The notes below the pieces were generated by a model, which had not been told where the DNA came from, did no database searches, and was given only the letters and a program-made list of their open reading frames with translations. The position numbers were made by a program, and so were the translations under genes. From Chitinophagaceae bacterium (GTDB lineage Bacteria > Bacteroidota > Bacteroidia > Chitinophagales > Chitinophagaceae), in assembly GCA_021299175.1 (NCBI GenBank), contig JAJTFY010000027.1, positions 1 to 32,178 of the forward strand: a stretch of 32,178 bases of DNA. Reading direction: 5' to 3'. Shown here one piece after another: positions 6,892-30,394 of this stretch (the first letter of the stretch is position 1; each line of letters begins with the position of its first letter).

Positions 6892-8427
6892 TTAGAATTG
6901 AGCACGTATGCCAAAGTTGATTCCTACGGGTGTGGCAATGTTTCCATAATCCATTCCTACACCGCCAATACCACCTCTAGAACCAGCATTATTGGCATTC
7001 GCTGCCGGATCAGCCCCGCGGTAGTTGGTTAGGATGAACAAATCGGTACCCGTAAAGAATACAGAGGCACTCTTGAAAAGGTTGTTGCGTTTTATCAGTT
7101 TACTTGGCAGTCGATAACTCAACGTTACGTCTCTCAGACGAACCCAATTGATATCACGCTCAATGAAATCCTCTTCAGCCACACCCAATGAATAAAATTC
7201 ACTCCGGGCGAAGGGAGTTAACACAATAGTGTTTTGAGTAGGCTTAGCCGTATTCTCCAGGCCATCTTGCAATACTCCTCTAATAACACGAGGTGTTTCT
7301 CTATCAAGGGTACGAACGCTTGCTCCGCGGGAATAAAGGAACCATTCAGTTCCGTTGAAAATATCACCTCCTTTACGGATATCTAGGTTAAAAGATAAGT
7401 TCCAGTCACTCAGGAAGGTGAAACTATTGATCAGACCCATATTCCAGTCCGATTGACGACTTCCTATCCTGATATAATCAGAAACACGAATGGGTAAACC
7501 GGAGGTCGGACTAATCAAAACATCTCCGCGGGTATTTCTCAGGAAGCGGGTAGCAGCAAGATCGAAGATAGAACCTCCTTTGGTAGCTATATTCCGTATA
7601 CCGGCAATCCAGGTATCAGAATTATAAAAGAACGGAAGGTCGGAAGGCATTCGTAAAATTTCGTTTCGATTGCGTGCCCAGTTAACCGTAACATCCCAAG
7701 TGAAATTTTTGCTTTTGATGGGAGCTCCTGTGATTTGCATTTCTATACCACGGTTCTCCACATCTCCACCATTGATCCATTTCAGAATGGCACCAGACGC
7801 ATAACTCAAACGAGGGTTCAGCAGCTGATCAACGGTTTTATTAGAGTAATAAGTCAGATCCATGCCCAGTCTTCCCTTAAAGAATTTAGCTTCCAAACCA
7901 GTCTCAAATTGTTGGCTGAATTCAGCGCGCAATTGAGGGTTACCCTGTGTAACGAAAGGGGAAAAACCACCACCGGTAAAAGTTGATTGAGCAAAGCGAT
8001 TGGAGGTTACATAAGGTGTTCTCGGGTCACGACCTGTGGTAGCATAGTTGATACGGTATTTCAGGTAACTGATTTCTTTAGGTAATTTGAGAATATCACT
8101 AAGAATGAAACTCGATCCTGCTGTCCAATAGAAGTAGTAGGGCTTGGCTGGATCCCAGTTGGTAGGATCAACCAGACGACTTGAGCCATCCATACGTCCT
8201 GCCAATGAAAAGTTGAGGAAGTTTTTATAACTGGCATTGTAGTTAATAAATGCCCCAAGGCGGTTGTTGTTTTCTGCAGTTGTGATGGATCCGATTGAAA
8301 TAGGATCTGCATTGTTCAGGCTCACAAACTCCGGATCAAAAAGGCGTTCACCCCGGGTACCATTCACTTCATATTTTCTGGAATCAAAGGTGAAGGCGGC
8401 CGTAATGATGTTATTTACATTACCGAT
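6892..8427 (-). pseudogene. SusC-like TonB-dependent receptor, C-terminal beta-barrel part (frame-shifted from N-terminal part)
   Basis: This frame opens after a stop at 8430-8428 and reads NNIITAAFTFDSRKYEVNG, then ~500 residues of typical SusC barrel (GRMDGSSRLVDP, TSNRFAQSTFTGGGFSPF, SYASGAILKWINGGDVENRG) ending in a terminal Phe (GINFGIRAQF), as expected for an outer-membrane barrel recognised by BamA. It has no start codon of its own at a sensible place: an apparent start near 8367 is an internal GTG. It continues the protein encoded at 8415-9905, whose frame ends in a stop at 8415; the two frames differ by one base and overlap by about 13 bases. Residues before NNIITAAF that other SusC proteins carry between the two conserved blocks may be missing, so the lesion may be a small deletion rather than a single-base slip. 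Confidence 0.85.
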
Positions 8428-9905
8428 TTACTTTGCGGGTGGGTGAACCAGGTTCCCAAGTCTGTGTAGAAATCAATGCCCATCAAGGCTGTTAAGTTCA
8501 GCCATTTGTAAGGATCGTAGCCAACTTGAATATTACCCATCAGGCGGTCATTCTGATCAAAATTCTTGTTCTTGTTAATGTCCCAGAATGGATTGTCATC
8601 CTCCGCAAGTTGAAGGAAATTGCCATTTACGGAACGGCGATTCCCATTGGCATCCAGATAATTACGGGCATCATCATCCACTGGCCAGGTTAGAAGACTG
8701 AGGAGGAAGCCCCCTGCCCCTTTAGAGGCCTTGGTGGTTTTAGAGGAGATGTAGGTAAATGAATTGGTGATATTGAATTTAGGACTCAGCTTAAATGTTG
8801 TATTGAGTCGAAAATTATAACGATCGAATCCTGTATTTCGCACCATACCTTCGTTATTAAAGGTGCTGGCAGTAAAGCGATAAGTGCTCATGTCTGTTCC
8901 ACCTTCAAAGGCCAGGTTATGTTGCTGGGTTTGGCCAGTACGAAAAAAATTACTCAGGTTATCAAAAGTCTGAGCATCTTTAGGAATTCGGTTACCAAAA
9001 AAAGTACGCTGGGTATTATTGGTAATACCGCCGAAACCCTGGTCATAAACGTTTTGGATTTCAGGCAGGCGTGTTACTTTTTCAAAACGAAAAGAGTTAT
9101 TATAACTAACAGAGGCTTTTCCTTTTTTACCTTTTTTGGTAGTAATGATGATGGCGCCATTCGCTCCATCTGAACCATAAAGTGCTGTAGCTTCAGGACC
9201 TTTCAATACTGTAACAGCCTCTATATCTTCTGGGTTGATATCCATCGCACGGTTACCAAAATCGTTGCTCCTGTTCGCCATATTAATACTTCCGGAAGCA
9301 GGTAATCTGTCTTGCATTTCAAAAGAACTGTTGTCGATGATCAGTCCATCTACAACGAAGAGAGGCTGATTGTTACCATCAATTGAAGTAGGGCCCCGCA
9401 ACACAATAGTCGCAGATGCACCAGGCATACCAGTTGTGGCTGTTATCATTGCACCGGGAATACGACCCGCCAATGAGTTGATGAAGTTGTCACGGCGGGT
9501 GGAGGCGATTTCGTCACCGCTCACCGATAAGGCTTGATAAGTTAATTCCCGTTTGCTCTTTTTTATATTATAAGCTGTTACCACTACATCGGTCAGGCTT
9601 TTGTCGGAAGCAACCATACGGATGCTTACCTTGTCTTCGTCTCCGACAGTGATTTCTTTCGCTACATATCCCACGTAATTAAAAACAAGCATGTGGCCTT
9701 TTTGAGCAGCGATCGAGTAATATCCAGCATTGTTGGCAGCCACTTTTTTTCCAGTGTTTTTGTTGGTAACGGTAACTCCCACCAGTGGAGAACCATCATC
9801 GTCAGATACGATGCTTCCTGAAATAGTTTTTTCCTGTGCCATCACCATGGTATGCAACAACAAGGGAAGCATGATCAGCCATGTGATTCTTTTGATTTGT
9901 CTCAT
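8415..9905 (-). pseudogene. SusC-like TonB-dependent receptor, N-terminal regulatory and plug domains (prematurely stopped)
   Basis: 496 residues: signal peptide (LIMLPLLLHTMVMAQ, ~1-23), a carboxypeptidase-regulatory-like domain (~27-105, SGSIVSDDDGSPLVGVTV), then the TonB-dependent plug (~115-250) with the SusC hallmarks LFVVDGLIIDNSS and GPEATALYGSDGANGAIIIT, and the first barrel strands. It stops after GIDFYTDLGTWFTHPQSKSVM, in the middle of the barrel, and the rest lies in another frame at 6892-8427. Without that half it cannot form a channel. The gene follows a near-consensus Bacteroidota promoter and heads the SusC-SusD-DUF4397-FAS1 unit. SusC proteins pump nutrients bound by SusD across the outer membrane using TonB/ExbBD energy. 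Whether the break is biological or an assembly error is unresolved. Confidence 0.88.
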
Positions 9906-10010
9906 AAACGTTTTTTTTTGTCTTTGAAAGACCTTGGTTTACTATGTAAAGAGGTATATGGTATGCCTTTTTGGGTTTTTGGCTTGTAGCAGTCGGGCTT
10001 AAATTGACCC

Positions 10011-10042
10011 GAAAGGTATTAATTATGGGGGAACTGGACAAA
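10011..10042 (-). promoter_or_regulatory. Candidate promoter of the SusC-SusD unit
   Basis: On the - strand TTTG (10042-10039) is followed, after 20 bases, by TACCTTTC (10018-10011), one base off the Bacteroidota -7 consensus TAnnTTTG with a suitable -33 TTTG. It lies ~105 bases upstream of the SusC ATG (9905), implying a long leader. Assigned by motif only. Confidence 0.45.
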
Positions 10043-10059
10043 TTCAGGGCTAAAAACCA

Positions 10060-10592
10060 TCAGTTTTTGAGCCCTTTCGCAGTTCCGCTCCAGTCAGGAT
10101 CCGCCGCTCCAATCCAGTTTCCTGAAGCATGATATTGTATGGCGTGCACCCTGCCAAACTGGGCGGGTGATTTTACTTCTTCCAGCTTGATGCCCGATTG
10201 CCTGAGCAGTTCCTTCCGGCTGAAAGGGCCTGTTCAAGGGGCATGCCATGGTCGATCACCCGGCTGATGACCTGGACAATGGCAGGTACTATCCTTGCTC
10301 CGCCAGCAGCACCCAGTGCCAGAAATGGTTTGCCATCTTTCAGGATGATGATCGGTGAGATATGCGATGATGCTCTTTCGCCTGCCTTCATTTGTCCAAG
10401 GTAGGGACCCATGGTTGTAGCCAAAACAAAACCGTTTTTCTTTGAAGCAACTTTTGATCCCATGAGTGGCCCCACCGACTGGGTGATGGAAACCATGTTG
10501 CCATTCTGGTCACTGGCCACCAGATGGGTAGTATGGCCATTGCTATGGTCTGCGGTGGTGGTATTTTTGGGAAGGATCATTGTTTTGGGCAA
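10060..10592 (-). pseudogene. ggt: Gamma-glutamyltransferase, catalytic small-subunit part (broken twice)
   Basis: Continuation of the GGT encoded at 10577-11638, in a different frame. It reads PKTMILPKNTTTADHSNG, then HTTHLVASDQNGNMVSITQ: the first Thr of HTTH matches the autocatalytic nucleophile that becomes the N-terminus of the GGT small subunit. It continues through GAAGGARIVPAIVQVIS to LEQALSAG and hits a stop at 10173. A second frame then supplies the proper C-terminus: RKELLRQSGIKLEEVKSP, FGRVHAIQYHASGNWIGAADPD, ending at TGA 10060-10062. The switch lies near 10195-10210. Comparison with the family from memory suggests that a stretch following the LEQAL-A-PR segment is absent, so this second lesion may be a deletion. 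As sequenced no active enzyme can be made. Confidence 0.87.
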
Positions 10593-10678
10593 ACTGTCTT
10601 TCCACCTCCATTGCTATGGTCTGCGGTGGTGGTATTTTTGGGAAGGATCATTGTTTTGGGCAAACTGTCTTTCCACCT
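10537..10678. repeat. Exact 71-bp tandem duplication inside ggt
   Basis: Two identical, directly adjoining 71-base copies: 10537-10607 and 10608-10678, each beginning CCATTGCTATGGTCTGCGG and ending GTCTTTCCACCT. 71 is not a multiple of three, so the second copy shifts the ggt reading frame; both resulting open frames encode PKTMILPKNTTTADHSNG. Removing one copy restores continuity between the two main ggt fragments. It may be a recent slippage or recombination event, or an artefact of joining two contigs without trimming their overlap. Confidence 0.97.
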
Positions 10679-11638
10679 GTTTACAGCATAGCGGGCAACG
10701 ACCAGGCTATCTTCTTTTGTTTTCAGGAGCGGTCGGTCTTCGTATGCCTTGTGGTGTGCGGCTGCATGGTACTGGAGGTAATCCCTTTCAGAAACCTTGG
10801 AAAGATCAACCTGTTCCAGCATTTGAAGCATTTCAATCACGATGGCACCATAGCAGGGCAGGCCTGTTCCAATGATTTCGTATCCCCTGTAACTTCCCCT
10901 GACGATTTTTGCCTCTTCGGCCTGGTAGTTTTTCATGTCAGCAAGGGTCAAGAAACCACCACCTTGTTTGATTTCTTCCGTCAGCGAATAGGCAATTCCT
11001 CCGTTGTAAAAAGATTTTCCCTTGTCGCGCGCAATGGTTTTAAGCGTTTTTGCCAATGCAGGTTGTTTGAACAACGATCCGCCGGCAAACACGGTATCTT
11101 TTTGGAGAAAATGGGCTACGGTTCCTTCAAATTTTCTCAATTCCTTGATCTCTATCGATTCTCTTTTTGACTCTTCGCTAAGGAGCATGTGCCCCTTGGA
11201 AGCAGCTGCTATGGCGGGTTCTATCACCTGCTTCAGCGGCAGCTTGCCATATTGCTGGTGGAGTTGTACAATGCCTTTTACCATCCCTGGTACACCAATG
11301 GTGCCATATCCATGCTCCGCTTCTTTTTCTTTTTTGATGTATCCGGCCGGCACCTGCGTGGTGGCATCCAGGCCCTTAACCCCTTGCCCTGGTACAAAAT
11401 AAATGGCCTGCAACCGTCCGCCCAATCCACTCATGCTGGGTTCCACTACCGAAAGCATGAAAGAAGATGCTGCAATGGCATCAAAGGCATTTCCTCCTTG
11501 TTTGAGCATGAGCAATCCGGCTTCTGTAGCCATAGGATGTGCAGTGGCAACCATGGCAGCGGATGAAGTGTCCTGTTTTTGCTGTGAAAAAGCGAGGCTT
11601 GCAATCAGGAGAAACAGGAATGGCAACAATTGCTTCAT
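10577..11638 (-). pseudogene. ggt: Gamma-glutamyltransferase, large-subunit part (frame-shifted by duplication)
   Basis: From the preferred start MKQLLPFLF (11638; an in-frame start at 11668 adds ten residues before the signal). Signal peptide ~1-18 (FLFLLIASLAFS), then the GGT large subunit: MVATAHPMATEAGLLMLKQG, GNAFDAIAASSFMLSVVEPS, GLGGRLQAIYF, GTIGVPGMVKGI. It runs through one copy of the 71-bp duplication and then reads out of frame to GGKTVCPKQ and a stop at 10577. GGTs are periplasmic enzymes that hydrolyse or transfer the gamma-glutamyl group of glutathione and related peptides, usually to recover amino acids. The processing site and nucleophile are in the downstream fragment, so this piece alone is inactive. 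An exact -7 element lies 28 bases upstream. Confidence 0.9.
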
Positions 11639-11665
11639 ACGTTGGGTTTGCAGTAAATTAAAGGA

Positions 11666-11673
11666 CAAAAATA
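11666..11673 (-). promoter_or_regulatory. -7 promoter element of ggt
   Basis: TATTTTTG on the - strand matches the Bacteroidota TAnnTTTG consensus exactly and lies 28 bases before the preferred ggt ATG. A -33 element is not obvious. It sits just after the GH3 stop, suggesting ggt is transcribed from its own promoter. Confidence 0.5.
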
Positions 11674-11694
11674 GACAATTTCTATCCTCGGTGT

Positions 11695-12483
11695 TTACTT
11701 GTATTGCAATCCCTCATCGTACCAGAAAAGACCATACTGCTTACCTTTCAGATAACCGGGCACATCTGAAAGTTGTTGCTGCGCTTGATCTTCAGAGATA
11801 GGAGTGGTAAAGGGCATCTTCCCGCTGGGTTTGAATTTGCCTGTGATGATGTCGAGCAGGGCATCAGTAGTGGTGCCAAATGTGGCCAGTACTCCTGCGA
11901 AATGCTTTTTCGTTTGCTCATTGTAGATCTCGTCAATCACCCATGGATTGGTATAGTTCACCGCCAGTATGGTTGGTTTTTTAGCAGCCAGTGCATTGAT
12001 GTAATTGATGTCAACTGCATTTTTGGATAGCGACAAATAAATCGGTGAACCATTTGATTCAAAAAGCGACTTTGACCCGGGAGTAATCCAAACCAGGATC
12101 ATGTCTGCTTCCTCAGGCGTTTTTACAAACTCGATGTCATGGTTGTTTTTCAATGGCTGGAAAACATTGCTTGCGGAGGGTGCTCCCCTTTTTTGGAAAT
12201 AGGTTTCAAAATAAACCTTTGTCTTTTGTTTGATGGGAAGTGCCTTGTTTTCATTCCGAAGCAAAACAATGGATTTGCGCATGGCCAAATCTGCCTTGGC
12301 TTGCAGGGCTGGATTGCCTACAAAAGCCACTGCCTTGTTTTCATCCACGTATGGATTTTCAAAAAGGCCCAGCTCAAATTTTTCCATGAGCAGTCGGTAT
12401 ACTGAGTTGTCTACGAGCTTGATGTCAACCATGCCAGATTTCACCGTTTCCAACAGTGGCGTAGGGTCTGCAGAGCCTGAGTA
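11695..12483 (-). pseudogene. Glycoside hydrolase family 3, C-terminal domain (frame-shifted from N-terminal part)
   Basis: Second part of the GH3 enzyme at 12441-13673, one frame away. The homologous frame is recognisable from YSGSADPTPLLETVKSGMVD onward, i.e. before the first available ATG, showing that it is a continuation and not an independent gene. It contains the GH3 C-terminal alpha/beta sandwich: the segment SIVLLRNENKALPIK, the region DMILVWITPGS, and the carboxy end KGKQYGLFWYDEGLQYK. In two-domain GH3 enzymes this domain supplies part of the active-site wall and often the acid/base residue, so its loss should inactivate the enzyme. The C-terminus is followed within 22 bases by the ggt promoter element. 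Confidence 0.85.
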
Positions 12484-13673
12484 TCTGCACCCCAGGGCAT
12501 CATTTCAATAGGCCCGGTATCCGAGTTGATGATGCCTTTGAAACCAAGGCTGTCACGGAGCAATCCAGTAATCACCGGCTTGTTGTAGGCATACGCAATT
12601 TCTTCATATTGGGTGCCCTGAGGGATAGAGTAGTAGGGCATGATGGCAGAGGTGCCGGCTTTGATGGCAGCTTTAAAAGGGATCAAATTGTTCTGAAACA
12701 TTTTACCAGGAAAATGTTCGTACTTCCCCCAGGAAAAATGCGGATCCTGTCCACCAACCCCCGCTCCGCCACCTGGAAAATGTTTGGTGGTCAGTGCAAC
12801 GGAGCTGGACGAAAGTTTTGTTCCTTGAAAACCAGTGACAATCTCATGCATCATTTTGCCAACCCATTCCGCATTCTCGCCAAAGGTTCCTTCAACCCTT
12901 TGCCACCTTGGTTCGGTGGCCAAATCAGCCATGTACATATATCCCTTCCTCAGCCCGACCGCGGCCCATTCCTGTCTTGCAATGTCTGCAAATTCATGGA
13001 TCAGCTTCAGGTCTCTTGTGGCAGAGAGCCCCAGTTCTCCGGGCCAGGTTGAAAAGCTGGTGGTGCCCACGCTCAGTCCTATGGAGGCATCTTTGGTGAT
13101 ATGATTTCTTGGATTGGAGGCGATGATGGCTGGAATGCCCAGTCCGTCTGCTTCACAAAGGGCCTGCAATTTGTTGGCCCAAGCTGCTGTGATGGCTGTA
13201 CTTGCATTGGCCCGCAGGATGAAATGCCGGAGATGAAACTGTGTAACCCCTTTGGTAGTGCCTGCGGACATCATCATGGGAAAAGGCAATGGTTTTCTGG
13301 TAAACATGTTCATGCTTTGCACCTGGTCTTCTTCATTGAAATCGCTGCTGATGGAATCTGTTGATCTTTGCGCTTCAAAAGACCGATCGTTTTTGAGTCT
13401 TGTGGTGCTGATGAGCATGAAACCGACTTTCTGTTCAATAGACATTTGTGACAGGAGGTTCTTCGCCCTTGCATCATTGGAAAGCCTCCAATCCTCGTAT
13501 GCGTCAAGCTTTCCGTTCCTGTTCAGGTCCTTGAATTGCAGATTCCCAACATTGATGAGCTTTGCAGAACGATGTCCCAGAAAAGGTTGTTTTTTATCTG
13601 GGGATGTTTGTGCTACAGCATCTTGCATTGCAAAAGCAACCAACATGGTCATCAAAAAGCCTGCATTGTTCAT
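12441..13673 (-). pseudogene. Glycoside hydrolase family 3, N-terminal catalytic barrel (prematurely stopped)
   Basis: Preferred start is the ATG at 13673 (MNNAGFLMTMLVAFAMQ, a signal peptide ending near DAVAQ); ATG 13721 is an alternative. The frame extends to 13976 but those residues overlap the divergent cupin gene and look non-coding. The GH3 TIM barrel is clear: LLSQMSIEQKVGFML, GLGIPAIIASNPRN, TKHFPGGGAGVGGQDP, and GFKGIINSDTGPIEMMPWG, where the Asp of NSD is the expected nucleophile. After PWGADT the frame turns to QALQTLRHCWKR and stops. Family members normally have a short helix (an ERY-K-AL-AG-D type segment) between the PWG and SGS blocks; here those blocks nearly abut, so about 15-20 codons appear deleted with frame loss. 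Likely beta-glucosidase-type; substrate not determinable. Confidence 0.86.
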
Positions 13674-13817
13674 GGTGAAAAATTTGATGAATAAAAATAA
13701 CATAAATCCTTTTCTGCCCATGGTCAAACTTCTAAAACGATTTCGCGTATTTTGATTAACTTTTGAATGGATATGAGTGGATTGCAATCCAATATTGTTC
13801 AACATCATCAAAGCCAA

Positions 13818-14558
13818 ATGAAAAAAATCATTGTTACAACTGTTCTTCTTTTCCAAACTGTTTTGTTGTTTGCCCAAGCCCAGATCCAGACAAAGGTGTA
13901 CAAGTGGAGCAGCGGAAAAACAGCCATGTTTGAAGGTGCTGGCGCGATTTTCTCCAAACAGGTCCTGAAAGGCCATGCCATTGCTGGAGGAAAAAAATTA
14001 AAGTTCAACACAGGCGCTGGTGGAGACGAACTTTTTTTCATCATCAAGTATGGTCCTGTGCATGTAGAATTGAATGGCGTTTCACATGACCTTGACAAAG
14101 GCTCTGTTGTTTTTCTTTTGCCCGGAGATGATGTTGTATTTCAGAACAAGCGCAAGGATGATGTTGAAATCTATGAAATGCAAATGGCATCAACCAATCC
14201 AGAACTTGCCAGGGGAAAAGCCGCTGGACCTTCTTTTGTGATGGATTGGTTTGATATGAATTTTAAACCACACGACAGGGGTGGCGTTAGACAATTATTT
14301 GACAGGAAAATTGTGATGTCGCCAAGGTTTGACATTCATATCACCACGTTGAATCCTGGTCTGAGCAGCCATCCGCCGCATACCCACAAAACAGAAGAAA
14401 TCATCCTGATGATTGATGGTGAAGGGGAGATGGTGCTCGGATCATCAAAACAAAAGATCATTACTGGTGATGCCGCCTGGGTGGAATCCAATATCCCACA
14501 CAACATCACCAACATTGCTAAAAGACCTGCTGTGTATTTTGCCATTCAGTGGAACTAA
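13818..14558 (+). CDS. Secreted bicupin protein
   Basis: About 246 residues from MKKIIVTTV; an upstream in-frame ATG at 13767 would place 17 non-hydrophobic residues before the signal, so 13818 is preferred. A signal peptide (VLLFQTVLLFAQA) indicates export to the periplasm. Two cupin folds follow: the first (LKFNTGAGGDELFFIIKYG, GSVVFLLPGDDVVF) lacks clear metal ligands; the second has HPPHTHKTEEIILMIDGEGE and GDAAWVESNIPHNITN, giving the His-x-His, Glu, His set of a metal-binding cupin. The layout resembles bicupin aminohydrolases or sugar-acid cupins such as ureidoglycine aminohydrolase, but a secreted form makes a carbohydrate-related role more plausible; the reaction is unknown. It is divergent from GH3 and 9 bases upstream of the CE6-type esterase, so the two are probably co-transcribed. 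Confidence 0.85.
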   Translation: MKKIIVTTVLLFQTVLLFAQAQIQTKVYKWSSGKTAMFEGAGAIFSKQVLKGHAIAGGKKLKFNTGAGGDELFFIIKYGPVHVELNGVSHDLDKGSVVFLLPGDDVVFQNKRKDDVEIYEMQMASTNPELARGKAAGPSFVMDWFDMNFKPHDRGGVRQLFDRKIVMSPRFDIHITTLNPGLSSHPPHTHKTEEIILMIDGEGEMVLGSSKQKIITGDAAWVESNIPHNITNIAKRPAVYFAIQWN

Positions 14559-28520: not shown

Positions 28521-28955
28521 ATGAAAAAAATATTTCCCCTTTTTCTGCTCTCCTTCTTTTTGCTGAATTGTACTAAAAAGGAGGCAACCTTGACTGAACA
28601 GGAAGTTTATGCGGTATTGGATAAATTTGATCAAGGATGGGAACAAAAAAATGCTGATTTGGTAGACTCTGTTTTGTCTGAGCACTATGTCTATTATACC
28701 CAGTCTGGACAACCTTTTGACCGCAAAAACATCATTGCTACCGCGGGGTCAGATGTCTATCAATTGCAAACCATGAACCGCGAACATTTGACCCTGCAGA
28801 TTGAGGGGAATACGGCCGTGGTGAACACCATCTGGAAGGGGAAAGGGTTCTACCATGGTGAACAGTTCAACGACAAACAGCGCTGCAGTGTAACCATTGT
28901 AAAACACAATGGGGTGGTCAGGATCCTTGCGGAGCATTGTACGCCCATCAAGTAG
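28521..28955 (+). CDS. NTF2-like (SnoaL/DUF4440) lipoprotein
   Basis: 144 residues from MKKIFPLFLL; an ATG at 28476 in the same frame would put 15 unlikely residues before the signal. The lipoprotein signal ends at Cys17 (FLLNC, TKKEA). The rest reads as one NTF2-like cone: VYAVLDKFDQGWEQKNADLV, then ALL-beta strands with LTLQIEGNTAVVNTIWKG, and the end GVVRILAEHCTPIK, close to DUF4440. Such envelope-anchored members have no firm function; they may bind small ligands or act as minor hydrolases. The stop is 7 bases from the converging chitinase gene. Confidence 0.8.
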   Translation: MKKIFPLFLLSFFLLNCTKKEATLTEQEVYAVLDKFDQGWEQKNADLVDSVLSEHYVYYTQSGQPFDRKNIIATAGSDVYQLQTMNREHLTLQIEGNTAVVNTIWKGKGFYHGEQFNDKQRCSVTIVKHNGVVRILAEHCTPIK

Positions 28956-28962
28956 AGGACAG

Positions 28963-30088: not shown

Positions 30089-30131
30089 AATAAATTAACG
30101 ATGCACTCTTGAAATTAAAGTGTTCTATCAT

Positions 30132-30378
30132 TCAAATAGGTTCATATAATTCCCCTCCTGGTCAGGAGGGGTGGCACGAAGTAGGCCGCACCGAAGGTGC
30201 GGTCGGATTCGTGCCGGGGTGGTGGAGGTATATTTCCAAAAAAGCTAGAGGGAAGAAAATCCAGAAGGGAACATAAATGAAGTGTGAATTCCACCACCCC
30301 GCCTCGTCCGATTCACTTCGTTCATCGGTCTCGGCACCCCTCCTGGTCAGGAGGGGTGTTTTTTGTAAACCTATTTGA
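30132..30378. repeat. 247-bp nested inverted-repeat element (MITE- or REP-pair-like)
   Basis: This fills most of the 337-base gap between chitinase and TSUP genes. Ends: TCAAATAGGTT (30132-30142) and its perfect complement AACCTATTTGA (30368-30378). Inside are two copies of the near-palindrome CCCCTCCTGGTCAGGAGGGG (30152-30171 and 30337-30356); a long stem GGCACGAA (30173-30180)/TTCGTGCC (30208-30215) enclosing CCGCACC-GAA-GGTGCGG (30186-30202); and an 11-base pair GGGGTGGTGGA (30216-30226)/TCCACCACCCC (30290-30300) around an AT-rich core with no gene. The two halves are thus diverged inverted copies of one ~75-base structured unit. No coding capacity. A genome-wide dispersed repeat or non-autonomous element is likely; flanking target duplications are not evident. 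Confidence 0.8.
30335..30363 (+). terminator. Hairpin plus T-tract inside the repeat element
   Basis: The right head palindrome extends to an 11-bp stem, CACCCCTCCTG/CAGGAGGGGTG, with a 2-base centre, followed on the + strand by TTTTTT. It has the form of an intrinsic terminator but lies upstream of the TSUP gene, so it would block transcription from the left, or act as an attenuator if transcription starts within the repeat. Confidence 0.45.
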
Positions 30379-30394
30379 GGAAAAGTCATAAACT

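Follow-up and report, generated by a model that had tools for sequence, protein, structure and literature searches.

Frame breaks in three consecutive genes of a Chitinophagaceae draft genome are very probably scars of genome assembly

Introduction

Spurious pseudogenes that originate from genome assembly have been documented by Cooley and Wright (2024, PMC11017572), whose account puts frame breaks down to assembler, platform and coverage rather than to evolution, and rests on tallies of frameshifts and of internal stops among the assemblies of RefSeq. The lesions described below are alike in their attribution and unlike in their form, being mostly sharp losses of 52-101 bp together with one exact duplication. 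A second related fault is found at overlapping or negative-gap contig joins (PMC5368935), where overlapping contig ends are mishandled in scaffolding; that study treats gaps placed within overlaps and the calling of variants close to contig ends, whereas in the present genome there are no runs of N and the genes are shortened or doubled. Finally, Kastor (PMC12007338) detects assembly-fragmented genes by comparison with relatives, as was done here, and is directed at long-read assemblies.

The window, that is, the whole stretch of 32,178 nucleotides analysed here, is contig C50 of a draft genome of a Chitinophagaceae bacterium (2.27 Mb in 164 contigs, stated completeness 98.2%) that was probably assembled from a metagenome. 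An earlier note had described four frame breaks in three consecutive minus-strand genes of this window (susC-like, ggt and GH3), and held that the sequence alone did not separate a local assembly fault, a recent loss of selection and a recombination-prone stretch. This was a fair judgement, and the relatives and the rest of the genome do separate these options: with high confidence, the four breaks can be put down to errors of assembly rather than to biology.

Materials and Methods

In all, 639,099 bases of the genome were analysed, the remaining 72% lying outside the analysis. Large indels were sought in eight stretches (137,755 bases) by comparison with up to six same-genus genomes, at least two of which covered 126,604 bases (21,160 of 32,178 in the window). 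Besides the window, four stretches were picked blind, for size (L110, L111, L113 and L121), and three for flags of an ab initio frame-break scan (L115, L116 and L126). A scar was defined as an indel of at least 20 bp present only in this genome and of the same size against every covering genome. A further set of 40 contigs (402,592 bases) was submitted to the frame scan and to Pfam. Selection was assessed by branch-wise counts of nonsynonymous and synonymous changes (N/S) in GH3 and ggt, the latter without its last fragment, with 12 other genes of the window as controls. The frame scan includes a reverse-strand background, an earlier form lacking it having been replaced after giving many antisense false positives.

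Not a single N was found in the 639,099 bases, and none marks any join. As N occurs in just one of the 295 sequences examined, gap runs that had been stripped would look the same as joins of zero length.

Results

Four breaks in the window

All four breaks are present in the sequence, and each of them involves many bases (-55, -73, +71 and about -85), where the earlier note had suspected changes of more than one base in at least three. One of its positions, 10195-10210, needs a small correction, the junction being at 10213-10214. The broken genes and their scars, all on the minus strand, are as follows.

12444..13976, minus strand: GH3 N-terminal fragment (listed open reading frame), with PF00933 (Glyco_hydro_3) over residues 294-491, profile positions 68-256 of 316.
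12483..12484, minus strand: GH3 scar, 55 bp absent relative to 5/5 covering genomes, with a single best placement.
11695..12483, minus strand: GH3 C-terminal fragment, with PF01915 (Glyco_hydro_3_C).
10577..11638, minus strand: first fragment of ggt (gamma-glutamyltransferase), with PF01019 at profile positions 3-276 of 512 and TIGR00066 at 2-299 of 518.
10537..10678, minus strand: exact 71-bp tandem duplication in ggt, 2.00 copies (10678-10608 and 10607-10537).
10173..10607, minus strand: middle fragment of ggt, with PF01019 at profile positions 318-451.
10213..10214, minus strand: ggt scar, 73 bp absent relative to 5/5 covering genomes.
10060..10213, minus strand: last fragment of ggt, about 50 codons, recognised by frame and alignment, with no Pfam match on its own.
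8415..9905, minus strand: N-terminal fragment of a SusC-like TonB-dependent receptor, with PF13715 (carboxypeptidase-regulatory) and PF07715 (plug).
8423..8432 (about 8427), minus strand: susC scar, placed only approximately, with a loss of about 85 bp (28 codons and a change of frame).
6892..8427, minus strand: SusC-like C-terminal (beta-barrel) fragment, with PF00593; its homologues are uninterrupted.

The start of ggt was set by eye at the ATG at 11638, the list of open reading frames having a TTG at 11668, and the true start of GH3 is probably further in than that of the listed frame. The gene-by-gene comparison with relatives that the earlier note had called for found the breaks absent there and the genes uninterrupted. 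The 71-bp unit of ggt is single-copy in 5/5 covering same-genus genomes. At the susC break, 28 residues are absent that are present in 12/12 homologous loci (nine genomes, about 40% identical), and from these missing residues and the change of frame it follows that about 85 bp were lost. The breaks also share their frame sense, as had been claimed: -55, -73 and +71 leave the same remainder modulo 3, and susC agrees by frame. The adjoining SusD and DUF4397 genes are open frames, in keeping with the earlier description of intact neighbours, and so is the fasciclin gene beside the broken genes. In the rest of the window, no other indel of at least 20 bp confined to this genome was found across the covering relatives (two or more of which span 21,160 of the 32,178 bases), and no exact tandem repeat of at least 25 bp was found elsewhere in the window. 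The four breaks are not due to chance.

The SusC-like gene (6892-9905) is a divergent allele. DNA similarity to the relatives, which amounts to about 77-94% across ggt, GH3 and the gene that follows, ends at about 9835, and the homologues listed for the SusC-like protein within the genus are mostly 34-44% identical, with 53% over one 163-residue stretch. This suggests, on sequence comparison, that the SusC locus was replaced or is diverging fast beside a conserved ggt.

Two repeats were also observed. Between genes, at positions 30118-30380 of the window, lies an element of about 250 bp whose ends form imperfect inverted repeats and each carry a 22-bp motif (CCCCTCCTGGTCAGGAGGGGTG). Matches to parts of it occur on both strands in many of the relatives' contigs, and a piece lies upstream of the GH3 gene in G030; it may represent a small non-autonomous mobile element, or else a paired repeat resembling terminators. 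The contig end formed by positions 1-48 of L111 (contig C5) is a short dispersed repeat, with many short matches in the relatives' contigs.

Scars on other contigs and in core genes

The fault is not confined to the window. Eight large indels present only in this genome were found in the 126,604 covered bases, and all eight lie within genes by homology, namely ggt (twice), GH3, glpK, sprA, an SDR gene, nuoB and nuoC. The 80 kb sampled blind yielded one scar and the 25.6 kb sampled for flags yielded four. Relatives' DNA reveals scars on four contigs beyond the window (C10, C15, C21 and C25), and domain matches point to more. The lesions outside the window are listed below.

L121: glpK, 52 bp missing relative to 4/4 covering genomes.
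L116: sprA, 101 bp missing relative to 6/6 covering genomes.
L116: SDR gene, 70 bp missing relative to 4/4 covering genomes.
L126: nuoB, 100 bp missing relative to 4/4 covering genomes.
L126, 411 bp from the nuoB scar: nuoC, 97 bp missing relative to 4/4 covering genomes.
L115 (contig C9), about 5656: waaA (lipid IV(A) Kdo transferase, a core gene), 8-bp frame-changing insertion of ambiguous placement.
cox1 (cytochrome oxidase subunit I): two frames, about 200 bp missing relative to one relative, the only one compared.
ftsK: two frames by domains only, split between the alpha and motor domains, the second part from FtsK_SpoIIIE position 34.
pheT: frame change within the B5 domain by domains only, the second part from position 24 of 67.

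The protein profiles show holes matching the deletions, from 739 to 773 of 2319 in SprA and from 64 to 99 of 180 in NuoB. Against solved PheRS beta chains, the match of the first pheT part stops at about residue 401 and that of the second starts at about residue 441; the gene also runs off the contig end. These domain matches suggest that ftsK and pheT are split like the other scarred genes. A DUF5703 protein is split across two frames by Pfam, and an aldose epimerase likewise, its second part falling below the Pfam cut-off.

Another 17 large indels were not confined to this genome in all covering genomes, and 15 of them lie outside its own open reading frames of at least 120 codons. Two do not: one in L126, where this genome and G004 differ by 44 bp, and the stretch 13694-13727 upstream of GH3, which belongs to the listed frame but probably precedes the true start. 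The same script places only five of the eight scars inside an open reading frame and assigns two of the five to the opposite strand, as the frames are cut by the scars themselves; this yardstick is thus uneven, and the scars were placed in genes by homology. One further candidate was rejected at 28954-28962 of the window, where the spacer separating two convergent genes falls about 51 bp short of its length in 4/6 relatives but is equally short in G004; this is natural variation.

The ab initio scan gave 20 candidates at LLR of at least 8 in the 639,099 bases of this genome and two in five relatives (G002, G030, G017, G004 and G013; 421,709 bases). These figures show an excess only roughly and give no rate, since some of the 20 resemble neighbouring genes, the model was trained on this genome, which possibly lowered the control count, and there is homology among some of the control loci. 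The scan misses two known scars, the ggt duplication and nuoB. In the second set (40 contigs) there were 12 candidates at the same threshold, and the fragment pairs of all but L325 were scanned with Pfam. Three of these 11 pairs have one family over both fragments (cox1, DUF5703 and aldose epimerase), and in two (pheT and ftsK) a domain starts late in the second fragment. L309, L304, L327, L329 and L298:971 offer no clear-cut Pfam picture. L334 resembles two neighbouring genes by Pfam; L331 also resembles neighbouring genes, and so does L122, which has two anthranilate-type domains and which we take to be trpG/trpD. Two probable breaks of the common frame sense were also seen, at about 962 of L124 (contig C18), with a weak SusC-like match and no Pfam family, and at about 5277 of L125 (contig C20), in an ABC transporter.

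Selection on the broken genes

If pseudogenisation were true and very recent, brought about by short deletions with almost blunt ends and by one duplication, the flanking codons would still look selected, and that is how they look. On the branch of this genome (partner G030, outgroup G013) N/S is 9/71 in the broken genes and 52/282 in the controls, which lends no support to the recent loss of selection that had been proposed. Under the rule that those of four other genomes present at a site agree, N/S became 5/33 and 19/83, and with G013 as partner 7/30 and 24/115. The partner's own branch gave 3/37 (G030) and 2/22 (G013) in the broken genes. In the G013 comparison, 7/30 against 2/22 is a slight excess in small numbers, which favours pseudogenisation and counts against assembly scars, yet the branch of this genome does not stand tellingly above its own controls. 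On the whole, there is no clear sign of relaxed selection in the broken genes, and the gene fragments remain open frames.

The other contigs also speak against pseudogenisation. Similar lesions in nuoB, nuoC and cox1 and, by domains, in pheT and ftsK would require a joint loss that is most unlikely, and the position of all eight large indels within genes argues in the same direction. Phenylalanyl-tRNA synthetase (PheT) is essential. For this reason, unless the remaining 72% of the genome contains intact copies, the lesions would not all be true ones in a living cell. Pseudogenisation is accordingly improbable, although it is the strongest of the alternatives to assembly scars.

Junctions, codon phase and frame sense

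The nine placed junctions can be shifted by only 0-2 bp without losing matches, and there are almost no direct repeats or microhomology at them; at the cox1 junction up to 7 bp of ambiguity is possible. Deletion by slippage between direct repeats was rejected on this ground, blunt end joining being still compatible. A local stretch prone to recombination or breakage, perhaps with non-homologous end joining, would agree with these nearly blunt junctions, with four lesions inside 4.1 kb and with an adjoining susC that is a divergent allele beside conserved flanks. Equal lesions on other contigs speak against it, and these, together with the 0-2 bp of ambiguity, leave the earlier proposal of a recombination-prone stretch unsupported; the codon-phase pattern described next, if real, is also unexpected from DNA damage. 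We regard such a stretch as very improbable, more so than pseudogenisation. Programmed frameshifting or bypassing, with genes functional across the breaks, would suit four breaks of one frame sense and is contradicted already by conserved coding sequence of which 55, 73 and about 85 bp are missing and 71 bp are doubled, so that it hardly deserves consideration.

A single best place exists at six of the nine junctions, and in four of these six (GH3, the ggt duplication, glpK and nuoC) the left flank ends on codon position 2 and the right flank opens on position 1. The sprA junction goes from 3 to 3 and that of the SDR gene from 1 to 3, its 2-to-1 place being one match worse. Among the tied placements, those of the 73-bp ggt loss (10214 or 10213, phase 1 or 2) and of nuoB include 2-to-1, and that of waaA excludes it. 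The chance of 4/6 at 2-to-1 is 0.0019 if the nine phase pairs are equal, for an idea formed after the fact on the same data.

The frame sense is common to 8/9 lesions including susC (two-sided 0.039) and, when waaA (same sense) and cox1 (opposite sense) are added, to 9/11 (0.065), several lesions having been found through their frame shift. In independent contigs, 8/12 candidates show this bias (one-sided 0.19), which is not significant.

Discussion

Scars of genome assembly account best for the four breaks, and the assembly fault suspected before is strongly supported, only that it is not local, since four other contigs carry such scars and domain matches add others. The genome displays three marks of spurious pseudogenes: genes broken here are uninterrupted in the relatives, at eight large indels, core as well as dispensable genes are affected (nuoB, nuoC and cox1 by DNA, pheT and ftsK by domains), and the broken genes show no clear relaxation of selection. 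The high stated completeness (98.2%) and the zero N at the joins count against this reading. As for the mechanism, contigs were probably joined end to end where the assembler failed to resolve the sequence. Bases between contig ends would then be lost, leaving a sharp deletion (52-101 bp, and about 200 bp in cox1), and overlapping contig ends left unmerged would yield an exact tandem duplication (71 bp). Such joining would explain the near-blunt junctions and the exactly two copies of the duplication.

It could be conjectured that the contig ends were set by co-occurring strains that differ at third codon positions. The junction phases suggest, weakly and after the fact, that contigs end at such variants. 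More generally, it is conceivable, though rather doubtful, that scars in metagenome-derived genomes of mixed strains bear a codon-phase signature, their ends stopping immediately before third-position variants and resuming directly after them, an idea for which we claim no novelty. If this holds, lost pieces would measure 3n+1, unmerged overlaps 3n+2, and the false frameshifts would all have one sense; if it were general, the phase of a junction would help to distinguish assembly scars from true lesions even where no reads exist, and so serve as a check on other metagenome-assembled genomes.

The breaks are biologically ordinary and no new system is involved. The stated completeness gave no hint of the fault, and no gene loss should be read from this genome: GH3, ggt, susC, glpK, sprA, nuoB, nuoC, cox1 and probably ftsK and pheT are not to be called pseudogenes.
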